Below are positions 1 through 13,878 of a stretch of DNA of 57,424 nt, piece after piece. Position numbers and translations under genes: made by a program. The notes under the pieces are model-generated. The model worked only from the letters and a program-made list of their open reading frames with translations, searched no databases and had not been told where the DNA came from. Position 1 is the first letter of the stretch, and every line of letters begins with the position of its first letter. Origin of the DNA: a virus. The stretch covers positions 1-57,424 of the IMG/VR virus record IMGVR_UViG_3300038825_001534. One strand, written 5' to 3'.

Positions 1-432
1 ATCTGTGCTTGTGCTACTAGAATGATATAACTTCGAATCAAAAATAACTATTCTATTTTCCTTACAATCTACAGGATCTTTATCTTTAAAATAAGTTTTT
101 CCATTAGTTGTTGACATATAAAATATTGCAGTCTTGGTATTGTCGTAGTCTATATGATAACCATGTTGGACACTTTTCTCTGTCTTAGTTAATAAATTAG
201 TTTTTATTTTAACTAAAGTTTTACACTTTAGTTTTTCTAAAAAAGGTAACATTAAATTGAAATAACCTGATAGAACTTTATCATTTTCATAAAAGGTATG
301 AACGAATTGACAATATCCATCACCTATTAAATTAACTCCATTATAAAAATACCAAGGAAATTCATTCCCACAAATTAATTCTTTTAATTGATTAAAATTT
401 TTTTGATCTAAGAATTGATCAATAATTTTCAT
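1..432 (-). CDS. 2OG-Fe(II) oxygenase, C-terminus cut by window edge
   Basis: An open frame of 144 codons runs from an ATG at 432 to the window edge without a stop, so the C-terminus is missing. The sequence shows a double-stranded beta-helix pattern. The iron-binding HID triad is at residues 93-95, followed by the strand TAIFYMSTTNGKTYF, and then FDSKLYHSSS carries the distal histidine at residue 137. The 2OG-binding arginine would lie beyond the edge. The family hydroxylates proteins or nucleotides using Fe(II) and 2-oxoglutarate, and phage versions usually have no known substrate. The start overlaps the stop of the upstream gene as ATGA, which indicates translational coupling. Confidence 0.75.
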   Translation of the reverse strand, partial: MKIIDQFLDQKNFNQLKELICGNEFPWYFYNGVNLIGDGYCQFVHTFYENDKVLSGYFNLMLPFLEKLKCKTLVKIKTNLLTKTEKSVQHGYHIDYDNTKTAIFYMSTTNGKTYFKDKDPVDCKENRIVIFDSKLYHSSSTSTD

Positions 433-1625
433 TCCCAATCACTCTCTACTTCGAATGTCATTTGATAGTCAAACCTTAATTCTTTTAAATATGGTTTAAT
501 CATATTCCAATGTTCTTTGGTAGGATAAGAGAAACAATTATCAGATCTTAACCAATGATCTATTGTAGTTTTTTTAATAATATCAGCAGCATACAAACTT
601 TTTTTATCTAAATTTTCTTTTAAATATTTTATAAATTTATCTTTAGGAGGTAGTTGAGGCCTTATTTTAAATTTTTCATCATATACATCTATTAAGTGCT
701 TATTGTTTTTTAAATGTTCCATGGCCACATCCATTGATAATGTTTTTTGTACCGGTTGTTTTGATTGAGATCTATTTAATTTTCCTCTTAAAATTTTGGC
801 TGCATACTTAAAACTATTATCCCCTTTATCCATTGCGGTCGGAGTCCGAAAAAACTTTTTTGATTGCAAGTCCGATGATTCTTGCACATTGTGGGACGAT
901 TGCGTTTCCGAGACTTTTGATTCTGTTGGATCTATCTTTGTCCAATTCTCTGGAAATCCCATTAGGAACTCCACAAAGGTCGGATTCAATTTGCCACCAG
1001 GTTCTATTGGTTGATTTACTTTGTTCACTACATCGTTCAACTTTGCTCCGAACTTCGTTCCAGTGCCAACCCTCGTTACACTCCAACCTGATGAATTCTG
1101 CTTCACTGTTTCTGGTGGTGCTACTACATCCATCTGACAACTTGCCGATGGTGTTGGATACATCTTTAGCCGATCTGCTGCTATCCGTTGACCCAGACTG
1201 TGTCCTCTCGTTTTTCCTATGGATGGTGGAACCGTGTTCAACGTGTCCTTCCAATCTCTTGCGTTCGGTGTTGGATACTGCCTTGAGTAATCCATTTGTT
1301 TTTGAGTGTCCAATAATCCAGACTCTGTTTCTTTGGTGCCAAGCACCGAAGCCTGAAGCTGGAATAAGGAAACATTGGACTTCGAAACCTTCACTTTCCA
1401 ACTCGTCTTGCACCTGTCTGAGTACCATGCCGTTTTGGAGGTTAATAAGGCCTTGCACATTCTCCCCAATAACGAATTCTGGTTTAATTTCTTTGATGAG
1501 TCTAAACATTTCTGGCCAGAGATATCTGTTGTCATTTGTACCTTTTTGTTTTCCTGCAACACTGAATGGTTGACATGGGAAACCTCCAGTAATGACATCT
1601 GCTTCGAATTCTTCTCCTTTGACAT
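429..1625 (-). CDS. Dcm-associated protein overprinted on the methyltransferase gene
   Basis: This 398-aa frame lies one base out of phase with the cytosine methyltransferase gene and shares about 800 bp with it (826-1625). It then continues alone for about 130 residues. It looks like a real family seen beside phage C5 methylases. Around residues 31-46 it has TTDISGQKC, followed by YSDRCKTSWKVKVSKSN, YPTPNARDWKD and GGKLNPTFVEFLMGFPENWT. The unshared C-terminus has a helix-turn-helix-like stretch, KKTTIDHWLRSDNCF. Function is unknown; a target-recognition or methylase-partner role is inference. The start is uncertain. ATG codons occur at 1625, 1598 and 1535, and the one at 1535 has an AAAGGT ribosome site about 5 nt upstream. 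Confidence 0.7.
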   Translation of the reverse strand: MSKEKNSKQMSLLEVSHVNHSVLQENKKVQMTTDISGQKCLDSSKKLNQNSLLGRMCKALLTSKTAWYSDRCKTSWKVKVSKSNVSLFQLQASVLGTKETESGLLDTQKQMDYSRQYPTPNARDWKDTLNTVPPSIGKTRGHSLGQRIAADRLKMYPTPSASCQMDVVAPPETVKQNSSGWSVTRVGTGTKFGAKLNDVVNKVNQPIEPGGKLNPTFVEFLMGFPENWTKIDPTESKVSETQSSHNVQESSDLQSKKFFRTPTAMDKGDNSFKYAAKILRGKLNRSQSKQPVQKTLSMDVAMEHLKNNKHLIDVYDEKFKIRPQLPPKDKFIKYLKENLDKKSLYAADIIKKTTIDHWLRSDNCFSYPTKEHWNMIKPYLKELRFDYQMTFEVESDWE

Positions 1626-1797
1626 CTCTTATATCTCCTTCTATTGGTACATCAGGAAAATTTTTTCGTAAAACTTTCTGACAAAATTTATCAAACTCAA
1701 CAAACTTAACTGTATCAAATATACCGGTAGAGTGAAGTCCTAAACTAAAGCCACCTATTCCACTAAATAAATCTAATACCTTAAGCTTATTGTTCAA
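826..1797 (-). CDS. dcm: DNA (cytosine-5-)-methyltransferase
   Basis: This 323-aa enzyme transfers a methyl group from SAM to cytosine C5 in DNA, probably to protect phage DNA from host restriction. Motif I is LDLFSGIGGFSLG at residues 8-20. The catalytic Pro-Cys is in GGFPCQPFSVAG with Cys75. The ENV motif is near residue 113. Motif VIII is HQRNRVWIIG, with His at the usual Gln position as in many Dcm proteins. Motif X is RIKSLGNAIVPQ near the C-terminus. The variable region between VIII and X (about 165-290) should hold target recognition. It starts at TTG, inside the end of the upstream small gene. Much of the gene also encodes a second protein in another frame. Confidence 0.92.
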   Translation of the reverse strand: MNNKLKVLDLFSGIGGFSLGLHSTGIFDTVKFVEFDKFCQKVLRKNFPDVPIEGDIRDVKGEEFEADVITGGFPCQPFSVAGKQKGTNDNRYLWPEMFRLIKEIKPEFVIGENVQGLINLQNGMVLRQVQDELESEGFEVQCFLIPASGFGAWHQRNRVWIIGHSKTNGLLKAVSNTERKRLEGHVEHGSTIHRKNERTQSGSTDSSRSAKDVSNTIGKLSDGCSSTTRNSEAEFIRLECNEGWHWNEVRSKVERCSEQSKSTNRTWWQIESDLCGVPNGISRELDKDRSNRIKSLGNAIVPQCARIIGLAIKKVFSDSDRNG

Positions 1798-7880: not shown

Positions 7881-9513
7881 TTTTCTCCTGTATGTAAACT
7901 AAATAATCTTGTCCAATAGGATAATTAAACTTATAGTCAGATCTAAGTAAATGTAAAGTTTTTCTTGCTCTAGTTACACCAGTATACCAAACCTTACGTT
8001 CATCACTTTTTTCTTGTTTATTTTTGTTAGCATAATCAGAGGGGTAATTACCTTTACTATATAAAACAACATGATTTGCTTCTCCACCTTTTACAGAGTG
8101 TATTGTATCTATAGTAATTAGTGGATCTTTATCTAACTCTTTTTGGCCATATCTTCTTAACAATCTTATAAAATGTCTTATTTGTCTAGGTTTAAAATTT
8201 CTTCGTAAAATCCAATACCATGGCTTTGTTTTTTGATTATCTTCTAAAGTTAAACCACACCATTCTTTCAAAGTTTGAAAATCATATTCTCTAAAATCTG
8301 GTTCACTTCTCCAAAATTTATCTAATCTATATGCAGGGTCTTCAAGCTCTCTAATATATTTATACATATTCCTTGCAGCCTTTTTATCTATTTTTTTATT
8401 ATTAGTTATGGCTGTCCATGCTTTTATTGACTCCCATTGCTTTTGGTCAAAACACTTAGTCCCTTTATTATCTTTGTAATATAAGCCTGCATCTTTAGCT
8501 AACATTCTTAATTCATTTACTGTCTCATTGATTCTACCCAATATGTACCAATCCTCATTAAATTTTTCAAAAGGTATTTCTTTAAAAGATAAATAAGCTT
8601 TTACATAACCCTTGGACCCACCAGGTAAATATTCTTTTTCTTCACTATCGCTTATACCCCTCCTAATCACTTGAGAAAATTTATGTATAGCCTCTCCAAA
8701 TCTTTGAGTTCTTCTTAGTTTTACTTTTCGACCTGGAAAAAATTTAGTAAAGTATTTAGGATCAGCTCCGTTCCATTTGTAAATAGCTTGATCGTCATCT
8801 CCTGCCAAATATATTCTATCTACTTTAGGTGCCATCTTATAAATGACTGACCATTGTAATGGTGTGCAATCTTGTGCTTCATCTAATATTAAAACTTTTA
8901 ATGATGGAAAATCTATTTCTTTTATTGCTCTTTCAATCATATCATCGAAATCTATAAACGATCTTTCTCCACCACCTGTTTTATAATGTTCATAAGTGCT
9001 TATCTTTCTAAGAAATACGGTTAAAGAATCTCTTTTATAACTCTCTAATTTATAAGCTTCTTCAGGACTTATTAATAAATTTCTTGCTTTACTATATACA
9101 CCCAAGGACCAATCTTTATACATAAAGTTATCATCTGCTAATCTTTTATCACTTGTCTTTATAACTTTTGTTTGTAGTGCAAAATCAATCGTACAATCTT
9201 TTGGATCAAAAACTTCTTCTGGAAAATATCTTCTGCAATAAGTATGTAATGTTTTAAATCTAGAAAAATCATCTGTATTATATTGTGGAAAAGATTCCAT
9301 TGCTCTTCTCACTGCAGTGTTAACAGCTTTATTTGTAAATGATAAATAAGCTATTTGTTGAGGTCTAACACCTTTTCTTAAATAATTTTTTAAAACTTTT
9401 TCTATTAAAGTATAAGTCTTACCTGTACCAGGGGGACCAAATATTTTTATTGTTTTGTGGTAAAGTTTTTTTAATATTTTAAGTTCTAAACTTTCCTGTG
9501 TGGAATTCATCAT
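7870..9513 (-). CDS. UvrD/Rep-like superfamily 1 DNA helicase
   Basis: A 547-aa helicase. Walker A is FGPPGTGKT at about 25-33, followed by the motif Ia region YLSFTNKA. Walker B is LILDEAQD and motif III is LAGDDDQAIYKWNGAD. Motif V is TIDTIHSVKGGEANHVVLY and motif VI is VWYTGVTRARKTLHLL. It should translocate 3'-5' on ssDNA and unwind DNA at the fork or in recombination. It overlaps the primase gene by 35 nt. No DnaB-like helicase was seen in the window, so this protein may be the replicative helicase (inference). Confidence 0.95.
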   Translation of the reverse strand: MMNSTQESLELKILKKLYHKTIKIFGPPGTGKTYTLIEKVLKNYLRKGVRPQQIAYLSFTNKAVNTAVRRAMESFPQYNTDDFSRFKTLHTYCRRYFPEEVFDPKDCTIDFALQTKVIKTSDKRLADDNFMYKDWSLGVYSKARNLLISPEEAYKLESYKRDSLTVFLRKISTYEHYKTGGGERSFIDFDDMIERAIKEIDFPSLKVLILDEAQDCTPLQWSVIYKMAPKVDRIYLAGDDDQAIYKWNGADPKYFTKFFPGRKVKLRRTQRFGEAIHKFSQVIRRGISDSEEKEYLPGGSKGYVKAYLSFKEIPFEKFNEDWYILGRINETVNELRMLAKDAGLYYKDNKGTKCFDQKQWESIKAWTAITNNKKIDKKAARNMYKYIRELEDPAYRLDKFWRSEPDFREYDFQTLKEWCGLTLEDNQKTKPWYWILRRNFKPRQIRHFIRLLRRYGQKELDKDPLITIDTIHSVKGGEANHVVLYSKGNYPSDYANKNKQEKSDERKVWYTGVTRARKTLHLLRSDYKFNYPIGQDYLVYIQEKNDK

Positions 9514-11032
9514 CCATCTCCGATACTGCTTTAGTTTGTTTTGATTTAGTTGCCTTTTTATAGTCTACAAATTTAGGCATCTCTACTGACCACACATTTT
9601 TAACTCCTTCATGATAATCTATACGTTCACAACCTAATAAGTGCATAGCCTCTGCTGCACTTTTAAATGTTTTATCGTTACCTAAAAATTTTTCAAAAGT
9701 AATTTTTTTAAAATAACAGACATTTGTTTTAGAATCTAAGACAACATAATTATCTTGCAGTTTATCAAAGTCATCTTCTTCAATGTGGCTTTCAAAAAAC
9801 TTTTTAAGAAAATTATATTTTTCCTCTCCAAGTGTATCTTCAAATTTCATCTTTTGATTTTCAACTGCTTTCTTAACTATAGTGGACATAAGCATCTCAA
9901 AAGGGGATGGCCCACTTCTTGGTCTAGGTAATGTGACCCAATAAATTCCATAACGTAAAAGTTTTACTCTAAAAGATTTTTCATCCTTCATATCCTCCGG
10001 GCCAATAATAATTTTTTCGCCTTGGAAAATAAAAGAATATTCTATTGATTTAGTGCTTCTAATAAACTCTATTTCTTCAAAATCATCGATTAAATCTGGA
10101 ACCTGTGAACCAATACCAAGTTTACGAAACTTACATAAATCTTTATTACATATAGGTGTAATGGCTCCAAGCTTAGGTGGACATTTATAATTATAATCTT
10201 TTTTAATTACAGATTTGGCAACAGAGTTTTCTACCTCTCTAGGGTCCATCGGTGTAACAAAAATTTCTTGATTTCTTTTGAGAAGAATTGTTCTCATATC
10301 TTCAATATTTATTTTACCGTCTGTTTTTTTCATTTCTAAAACACCAACATTGTAAAGTAAGTCATTTCTATGATTGCCAGACCACTTATCCATTATCATT
10401 TTTTGAACACATGGTGGATAGTGTTTCCAGTCTTCCTCTGGTTCATATTCTTTTACTTTAATGTTTTGCAAATCTTCTAACGATAGTGTTTTTCTTTTTA
10501 TAATTTCTAAAAACGTTCCTATTAAAACTGGTGTATTAGATTCATTATATGCAAATTCAGTTGTTGCGTTCATATTAAAATAAGGCATATTCATACACTT
10601 ATTCATAGGAAATACTTCTAATGCTTGAAAAAAATTTTTATTCCATTCATGCAATTTTTTCAAAACATCTTTTACTGGATACCAATCTTTTAAAAATAAA
10701 AATAAATGTAGACCACCAGATTTAGATCTTACTGGCACCAAGGGTAATTGATTGTCTCTAAGTATATCTATAACTTTTTTTTGAGAATAGTCTTTGTAAC
10801 TTTGAGGATCGATATCAATACATCCCCATTTACAAAGATCTTGTTTTTCTGGTTTGATACCTATTCTTCTTTTACCTTGTAAATGTTCCTTCCAAATTTC
10901 TAATGTGACAGGTTCGTGGACCGTGAGTGTTTGGCCAACAGTCTTACCCCGTTCATCTACCTCCCCTGTAAGAGAGGTAGTGATGAACAGTTCAGAATTA
11001 CCCTCAAATATTTTTAAGAGTTGCTCCTCCAT
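9479..11032 (-). CDS. AEP-superfamily DNA primase
   Basis: A 517-aa protein. WGCIDIDPQSY at about 69-79 gives the catalytic DxD (Asp73, Asp75). VRSKSGGLHLFLFL at 101-114 gives the SxxxH nucleotide-binding motif of archaeo-eukaryotic primases. The segment YPPCVQKMIMDKWSGNHRND, followed by a helical region, resembles a PriCT domain. CNKDLCKF adds two cysteines. The C-terminal half is probably an accessory or helicase-contact region. It synthesises primers for PolA. It sits directly upstream of the helicase with a coupled overlap. Confidence 0.85.
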   Translation of the reverse strand: MEEQLLKIFEGNSELFITTSLTGEVDERGKTVGQTLTVHEPVTLEIWKEHLQGKRRIGIKPEKQDLCKWGCIDIDPQSYKDYSQKKVIDILRDNQLPLVPVRSKSGGLHLFLFLKDWYPVKDVLKKLHEWNKNFFQALEVFPMNKCMNMPYFNMNATTEFAYNESNTPVLIGTFLEIIKRKTLSLEDLQNIKVKEYEPEEDWKHYPPCVQKMIMDKWSGNHRNDLLYNVGVLEMKKTDGKINIEDMRTILLKRNQEIFVTPMDPREVENSVAKSVIKKDYNYKCPPKLGAITPICNKDLCKFRKLGIGSQVPDLIDDFEEIEFIRSTKSIEYSFIFQGEKIIIGPEDMKDEKSFRVKLLRYGIYWVTLPRPRSGPSPFEMLMSTIVKKAVENQKMKFEDTLGEEKYNFLKKFFESHIEEDDFDKLQDNYVVLDSKTNVCYFKKITFEKFLGNDKTFKSAAEAMHLLGCERIDYHEGVKNVWSVEMPKFVDYKKATKSKQTKAVSEMDDEFHTGKFRT

Positions 11033-12471: not shown

Positions 12472-13878
12472 GTGTATAACTATAAAACAAAACCATTTAA
12501 ACATCAAAGACAGTCGTTAATTGAAGGAGCCAAGCCACTCAACTTTGCATATTTTATGGAAATGGGAACAGGTAAGACAAAAGTAGCTATTGATAACGCT
12601 GCCTATTTATTCCAACAAAATGAAATAAAATTTGCATTTGTTATTGCCCCTAATTCAGTTTACCAAAACTGGAAGAAAGAAATAAATTTTCACTGTCCAG
12701 AATCCACTAATATATATATTTGGAAAGTAACAAAAGATAAAACATTTAAATTAGATCCTCAAAAACTTACATTTATTCTTATGAATGTTGAAGCATTATC
12801 TCATGCCTCTGGAAAAAAATGGCTTGAATATAAGCTACTAAAACATGGTAAAAGTAGTATGATTATTTTAGATGAAAGCACCACTATAAAAAACTTAAAA
12901 GCATCAAGAACAAAAGCCATAATAAAATTAGGGAAATTAGCTAAATATAAGAGAATTTTAACTGGTTCTCCTATTACTAAATCTCCTTTAGATTTGTTTT
13001 CACAATGTGCTTTTTTAGATAAAAAATTATTAGGCTATGAAAATTATACAGTTTTTAAATCAAGATACGCAGTTATGTATAGTATTGAAAGAGGTGGCTA
13101 TAACATACAGATACCAAAGTATTATGTAAATCTTGAAGAGCTTGAATATAAGTTAAAAAATTTTTCTTATAGAGTTAGAAAAAAAGATTGTTTAGATCTA
13201 CCCCCAAAACAATATGTCCAAAGAATGATTGAATTACCAGATGAACAAAGAAAAGCTTATGAACAATTAAAGGCCAATGCTCTGATTGTTTTAAAAGATG
13301 ATGAAGTATCTTATAATAATAAACTTACTGAATTACTTAAATTGCAACAAGTAGCTAATGGTTTTTTAAAAACAAATGATGGAAAGATAGTGAATTTCAA
13401 ATCGAATGCTAAATTAAAAGAATTAATGAGTATATTGGAGGAGAGTGAAGATAAGTGTATTATATGGGCTAATTACGTACATAATATAGAAATGATTAAA
13501 AAAAAATTAGAGGAGACCTATGGCAAAGATTCAGTGGTTTCGATATACGGAAAAGATTCAGTTGAAGTTCGTAACAATGCTGTTGAAAATTTTCAGCATG
13601 ATGACGGATGCCGTTTCCTCGTTGGCAACCCTACTGTTGGTGGTTATGGTCTTACCCTTACTGCTGCTAAGTATGTTATATATTTTAGTAATTCTTACAA
13701 TTTGGAAGTCCGTTGGCAAAGCGAAGATCGTGCTCATAGATATGGTCAAGACTCTCAAGTCACATATATAGATCTTATAGCAACAGATACTATTGATGAA
13801 ATGGTATTACATAATTTGGAAAATAAAATTAAATTGTCTGCTGAGACTCTTGGGGAACAGGTTCAGAAGTGGCTTTAA
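12472..13878 (+). CDS. SNF2/DEAD-like superfamily 2 helicase
   Basis: A 468-aa ATPase. The Q-like HQRQSL is at 11-16, Walker A MGTGKTKVAI at 31-40 and motif Ia is VIAPNSVYQNWKKE. The DExx box is IILDESTTIKN and motif III is LTGSPITKSPLDLF. The C-terminal lobe has VGGYGLTL and motif VI with SEDRAHRYGQDSQV. Phage members of this group act as DNA translocases in replication or recombination. It starts at GTG; a downstream ATG would lose the Q and Walker regions. It is one of only five plus-strand genes here and ends tail-to-tail with the next gene, overlapping by 50 nt. Confidence 0.92.
   Translation: MYNYKTKPFKHQRQSLIEGAKPLNFAYFMEMGTGKTKVAIDNAAYLFQQNEIKFAFVIAPNSVYQNWKKEINFHCPESTNIYIWKVTKDKTFKLDPQKLTFILMNVEALSHASGKKWLEYKLLKHGKSSMIILDESTTIKNLKASRTKAIIKLGKLAKYKRILTGSPITKSPLDLFSQCAFLDKKLLGYENYTVFKSRYAVMYSIERGGYNIQIPKYYVNLEELEYKLKNFSYRVRKKDCLDLPPKQYVQRMIELPDEQRKAYEQLKANALIVLKDDEVSYNNKLTELLKLQQVANGFLKTNDGKIVNFKSNAKLKELMSILEESEDKCIIWANYVHNIEMIKKKLEETYGKDSVVSIYGKDSVEVRNNAVENFQHDDGCRFLVGNPTVGGYGLTLTAAKYVIYFSNSYNLEVRWQSEDRAHRYGQDSQVTYIDLIATDTIDEMVLHNLENKIKLSAETLGEQVQKWL

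Follow-up and report, generated by a model that had tools for sequence, protein, structure and literature searches.

A viral C5 cytosine methyltransferase gene without motif IX (frame A) is overlapped for 800 nt by a second gene in the +1 frame (frame B), and the two appear to encode the alpha and beta polypeptides of a single enzyme of the M.EcoHK31I type, with B providing target recognition and motif IX; we put the probability of this reading at roughly 0.88. Frame A encodes the catalytic half of a DNA-methylating enzyme, and frame B very probably the target-recognition half. Frame B is a genuine protein-coding gene and is under strong purifying selection. Both genes lie in the stretch of DNA analyzed here, designated the window, which comprises positions 1 to 57,424 (57,424 nt) of the 59,421-base IMG/VR virus record IMGVR_UViG_3300038825_001534. 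The features of the locus, all on the minus strand, are as follows.

826-1797, minus strand: frame A (alpha), C5 methyltransferase of 323 aa with a TTG start at 1797; motifs I-VIII and X, without motif IX.
429-1625, minus strand: frame B (beta), 398 aa, +1 relative to A; putative variable target-recognition region, motif IX, and C-terminal extension.
1635-1640, minus strand: Shine-Dalgarno sequence AAGGAG of B, inside frame A and 9 nt upstream of the B ATG (1623-1625).
1309-1622, minus strand: doubly constrained part by the substitution test; A motifs IV to VIII (about A aa 60-163) with the B N-terminal domain.
1003-1308, minus strand: variable region, in which A (aa 164-265) is close to neutral and predicted to be disordered, and the PTPxxxD-rich putative recognition region of B is under purifying selection.
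939-992, minus strand: motif IX in B, KLNPTFVEFLMGFPENWT, B aa 212-229.
889-915, minus strand: motif X in A, SLGNAIVPQ, A aa 295-303.
429-825, minus strand: B-only 3' extension of about 130 codons, with an HTH-like module, KKTTIDHWLRSDNCFSYPTKEHWNMI, common to recognition regions of other DNA methyltransferases.

Translation of the open reading frames places the overlap at 826-1625, with B continuing about 130 codons past the A stop codon. Frame A matches Pfam family PF00145 (DNA_methylase) at 3.8e-55, and motifs I, IV (PCQ), VI (ENV), VIII, and X were all located through the Pfam match, invariant alignment columns, and the match to M.HhaI; an earlier note on this DNA was right that the methylase ends with a normal motif X. 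The predicted structure of A matches M.HhaI and M.HaeIII over about 165 columns, corresponding to the catalytic domain, and residues 173-264 have pLDDT below 50 and are predicted to be disordered. Frame B has no significant match in Pfam or NCBIfam, and belongs to PHROG_1008 ('DNA methyltransferase') at 9.8e-26. The blocks quoted in the earlier note for the second frame, YPTPNARDWKD and LMGFPENWT, are present, as is the placement of GGKLNPTFVEFLMGF opposite WQIESDLCGVPNGIS.

Other genes of the window are recorded in their own right. The gene at 1-438 (minus strand) matches PHROG_274, 'DNA endonuclease V', at 1e-42, and also has weak matches to 2OG-Fe(II) oxygenase families; the PHROG name looks doubtful. 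The product of the gene at 9479-11032 (minus strand) resembles primases and weakly matches the AEP domain of TOTE conflict systems (Pfam, 1.2e-7). An SNF2/ResIII-type helicase gene at 12472-13878 is unusual in lying on the plus strand, as almost every other long gene is read from the minus strand.

Distribution of motif IX between the two frames

C5 methyltransferases require a motif IX, which adjoins the recognition region. The B block KLNPTFVEFLMGFPENWT lines up with the canonical motif IX, RRLTPRECFRLQGFPDSF, and comparison of B with canonical methyltransferases by hhalign gives a match to motif IX at the right place, although a weak one (E 0.094). Motif IX was sought, by regular expression together with reading of the sequences, in 149 scorable viral methyltransferase loci chosen without reference to B. 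It occurs in exactly one of the two frames across these loci; a handful of ambiguous cases were either settled by inspection or put aside. Where A is without motif IX, B is open through its own motif IX in 75 of 77 loci, and inspection showed the same for the remaining two (L325 and L326). In the canonical set, 68 of 72 genes have motif IX in A and no B; three of the others (L387, L406, and L364) proved on inspection to be artefacts of the regular expression, and the fourth, L392, has no visible C-terminus. This distribution argues for the proposed role of B more strongly than the direct profile comparison does.

Two relatives join elements of B to motif X. In BellusTerra gp79, which matches PHROG_1008 at 1.7e-79, sequence resembling B shares a chain with motif X, and in Gordonia phage Neville a B-type motif IX block and motif X are found within the methylase chain itself. 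The Mycobacterium phage BellusTerra locus (L168, 1417-2512) has a methyltransferase split between gp80, with motifs I-VIII, and gp79, with the recognition region, IX, and X, the two genes overlapping by 23 nt; this is an M.AquI-like arrangement in mycobacteriophages.

The alternative that survives best, which we nevertheless regard as improbable, is that B is an independent second protein, such as a regulator, a nuclease, or an anti-restriction factor, overprinted by chance on the methyltransferase. Such a protein might well be without a Pfam match or a solved relative, as B is, and the B extension does resemble a DNA-binding module. There is also a precedent in the ShiLan domain, a mobile insertion that codes for an HNH homing endonuclease out of frame in phage methylase genes (PMC11855218). 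B resembles ShiLan in being a second protein encoded out of frame in a phage methylase gene, but it spans conserved motifs of A, forms no insertion, has no Pfam HNH match, and appears to take over a motif of the enzyme. Against an independent function stand also the presence of B exactly where A is without motif IX and the single-chain combinations in BellusTerra gp79 and Neville.

Structure prediction was less informative for B than for A. The AlphaFold model of B is of low confidence (pLDDT 67, pTM 0.37), with the extension, residues 270-398, mostly above pLDDT 85. Comparison of the model with PDB structures gave no significant match, a PDB sequence search with a seven-sequence B alignment returned nothing up to E 10, and a search of a viral structure library returned mainly its own homologue. 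Given the low confidence and the absence of a PDB match, we make no claim as to the fold of the B core. A low-confidence model could fit a domain that folds on its partner, and is not evidence either way.

Coding and selection in the overlapping frames

Eighty viral contigs, many of them metagenomic, some near-duplicates, and some truncated, were collected with A peptides only, without reference to B. The +1 frame (B) is open for 142-430 codons in all 80 loci, and the +2 frame is interrupted many times. Two candidate exceptions, L061 and L078, were ruled out, as single indels in them shift both frames together. No stop codon was observed in B in any of the 66 full-length loci, against 8-15 expected per locus (mean 10.6), and the homologous loci with B broken by stops that the earlier note had proposed to look for are absent from this set. 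When the A protein was kept and synonymous codons were resampled, a stop-free B arose in 0 of 200 simulations for each of the 66 loci. A Shine-Dalgarno-like site precedes the B start in 114 of 139 loci, compared to 443 of 2851 (15.5%) other ATGs in the same A genes.

The comparison of substitutions between homologues, also proposed in the earlier note, was made over 27 disjoint pairs of loci with kappa set to 2. Upstream of B, substitutions are mostly silent in A. Across A residues 60-163, 45 of 192 substitutions are nonsynonymous in A and silent in B, and just 5 alter both proteins, which shows constraint on each frame; both are constrained again at A residues 266-306, the part that holds motifs IX and X. 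In the variable region between (A residues 164-265), 377 of 464 substitutions (81%, against 27% expected) change A and are silent in B. Selection there therefore acts on B, while A is close to neutral and is nearly a passenger. The variable-region pattern recurs in 19 disjoint pairs from an independent set (L261-L340), where 158 of 232 substitutions are A-changing and B-silent. Past the A stop, substitutions in the B extension number 71, 27, and 212 at codon positions 1, 2, and 3, a normal pattern for the B frame. The suggestion that about 800 bp are under two protein-coding constraints holds for A residues 60-163 and 266-306, but has to be narrowed by the roughly 300 nt of the variable region.

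Canonical single-chain methyltransferases show the opposite pattern, with 167 of 230 substitutions silent in A, and the substitution test found no selected +1 frame in them; their long +1 open reading frames are therefore probably over-annotation. One such frame has been annotated as a gene: in Streptococcus phage P0091 (L259, NC_070690), gp40 at 1286-1705, which occupies the +1 frame of a canonical single-chain methyltransferase, is labeled a second 'DNA methyltransferase', and for the same reason it is probably over-annotation.

Programmed frameshifting from A into B, yielding a single A-B fusion enzyme, would recall the relatives in which a motif IX block and motif X share one frame. We consider it very unlikely, however, since B has its own Shine-Dalgarno sequence and ATG at a consistent place, the N-terminal part of B is constrained ahead of any useful shift point, and a +1 fusion would lose the motif X that A keeps.

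The earlier note took conserved blocks as a sign of the second protein, and some of these blocks are partly +1 shadows of A motifs: KDDRxLWPE in A gives KMTxTSGQK in B, and EPxVGRVADGVPxR gives NPxWVEWLMGxPxG. Conservation of the B sequence is consequently no proof by itself, and tests that a shadow could not pass were used; the stop, Shine-Dalgarno, and substitution tests settle that B is real and bear out the claim of two genuine proteins in a long overlap. A shadow-ORF explanation, in which B would be spurious and would owe both its openness and its conserved blocks to the conservation of A, can be dismissed as scarcely credible: shadowed blocks exist and canonical methyltransferases also have a +1 frame open for 52-154 codons in their N-terminal part, but the expected stops are missing from B, a Shine-Dalgarno sequence lies upstream, B runs 130 codons past A with a normal coding pattern, and the substitution test already refutes it, selection in the variable region following B and not A.

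Breadth, the B extension, and known split enzymes

The earlier note expected the arrangement to be conserved in phages, and a tblastn search with B found it in 72 GenBank phage records, including phages of Paenibacillus, Escherichia, Vibrio, Staphylococcus, Pseudomonas, and Lacticaseibacillus among others. The +1 overlap is present in 80 of 80 loci from bacterial genomes, a set selected through B, and A ends in motif X in nearly all of them. Among the phyla represented are Bacillota, Bacteroidota, Pseudomonadota, Acidobacteriota, and Chloroflexota, and many of the loci probably belong to prophages. B is in the +1 phase relative to A throughout the sets of loci inspected. The more TP motifs B contains, the longer A tends to be (r = 0.68).

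B is extended past A in 23 of 66 close relatives, the window included, and the extension has the HTH-like, DNA-recognition-like C-terminal module that the earlier note described. The module, KKTTIDHWLRSDNCFSYP, is found also in the single-chain C5 methyltransferase of Bacillus phage CM1 (KKTTVEHWFRSDNCFSIP), between motifs VIII and IX, and in the methyltransferase of Staphylococcus phage Alsa_4 (KKSTIDHWFRRDKGGFSYP). Since the module is shared with other DNA methyltransferases, it probably makes additional DNA contacts. In Alsa_4 (L255, 262-2070), a Mom-like DNA modification gene adjoins the methyltransferase that has this module. In a Lokiarchaeota MAG (L175, CP070831), the B C-terminus together with the extension recurs downstream of a masked gap, at 60% identity to the window; this copy is possibly a phage or contaminant sequence in the archaeal MAG.

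The kind of enzyme proposed here is already known. M.EcoHK31I, which methylates YGGCCR, is a two-polypeptide C5 methyltransferase whose large polypeptide has motifs I-VIII and X, the small one having motif IX alone; the predicted TRD has been placed in the larger subunit (PMC3404938). In M.AquI, alpha has motifs I-VIII and beta has IX-X (PMC3404938). Compared with M.EcoHK31I by its published description rather than by sequence, the window has the same division, with motifs I-VIII and X but no IX in the large polypeptide and IX in the small. It differs in that its variable region is selected in the small polypeptide, B, and is disordered in the A model; we do not treat this mismatch as disqualifying, because the placement of the M.EcoHK31I TRD was published as a prediction. 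In M.EcoHK31I the small gene is reported (Lee, Kam and Shaw 1995) to be nested out of frame within the large gene, and the window shares this feature as well. The window beta, unlike that of M.EcoHK31I, may carry a C-terminal HTH-like extension, and the window type is widespread in phages.

M.AquI is likewise a natural split of a C5 methyltransferase whose small subunit has the recognition region and motif IX, but that subunit has motif X too, whereas in the window alpha retains motif X and the two genes share 800 nt. M.HhaI and M.HaeIII, both matched by the A catalytic domain, have the same total set of motifs as the window pair, but in one chain, and the +1 frame of canonical phage methyltransferases is broken and unselected. 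PHROG_1008 contains B, but is annotated by name only, without the overlap or a role for motif IX.

The belief that this kind of arrangement was undescribed does not hold. M.EcoHK31I (PMC3404938) is an enzyme of the kind, and depositors have annotated both frames in Paenibacillus phage Diva ('g49 internal gene') and in E. coli phage K1ind2 (ORF28/29). We found no paper in the open literature, of which our coverage was incomplete, that describes the overlap as general. What is new is the breadth, across phages and prophages from a wide range of bacterial phyla; the evidence for recognition in the inner frame; and the 130-codon B extension that shares a module with the recognition regions of other methyltransferases.

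A proposed two-polypeptide enzyme and its implications

We propose that one transcript would yield both proteins, alpha from the outer start and beta from the inner Shine-Dalgarno sequence within the alpha gene. Alpha would fold as the catalytic large domain, with AdoMet binding, the PCQ catalytic loop, and motif X, and beta would supply the small domain, with the variable DNA-recognition region and motif IX. Methylation would then require the association of alpha and beta. Over the variable region, beta would be the protein selected for, and the alpha translation would be tolerated as a linker, keeping frame A open as far as motif X. In the window phage and about a third of close relatives, the HTH-like module at the beta C-terminus would probably add DNA contacts, and the methylation product would protect or mark phage DNA.

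A broader reading, which we favor with some reserve, extends this to a large class of C5 methyltransferases from phages and prophages: lacking motif IX, they would be catalytic halves, and the overlapping frame would both encode their DNA specificity and be the place where it evolves. TP-rich modules of B would expand, from 1 to 7, passively lengthening a meaningless linker in A, and some betas would have gained the HTH-like module for longer targets. If this is true of the class, the overlap is its normal architecture, and the 'TRD' of the A frame carries no specificity.

The locus is an unusually clean and widespread case of dual coding over 200-430 codons, in which selection can be read for each frame and one gene has been reduced to a passenger of the partner that it overlaps. 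In phages and prophages, many of the genes that bear the annotation 'DNA cytosine methyltransferase' probably represent the catalytic half only. If so, expressing such genes alone, or predicting specificity from the A frame, will fail. For annotation, the rule that follows is that wherever A is without motif IX, it should be looked for in the +1 frame.
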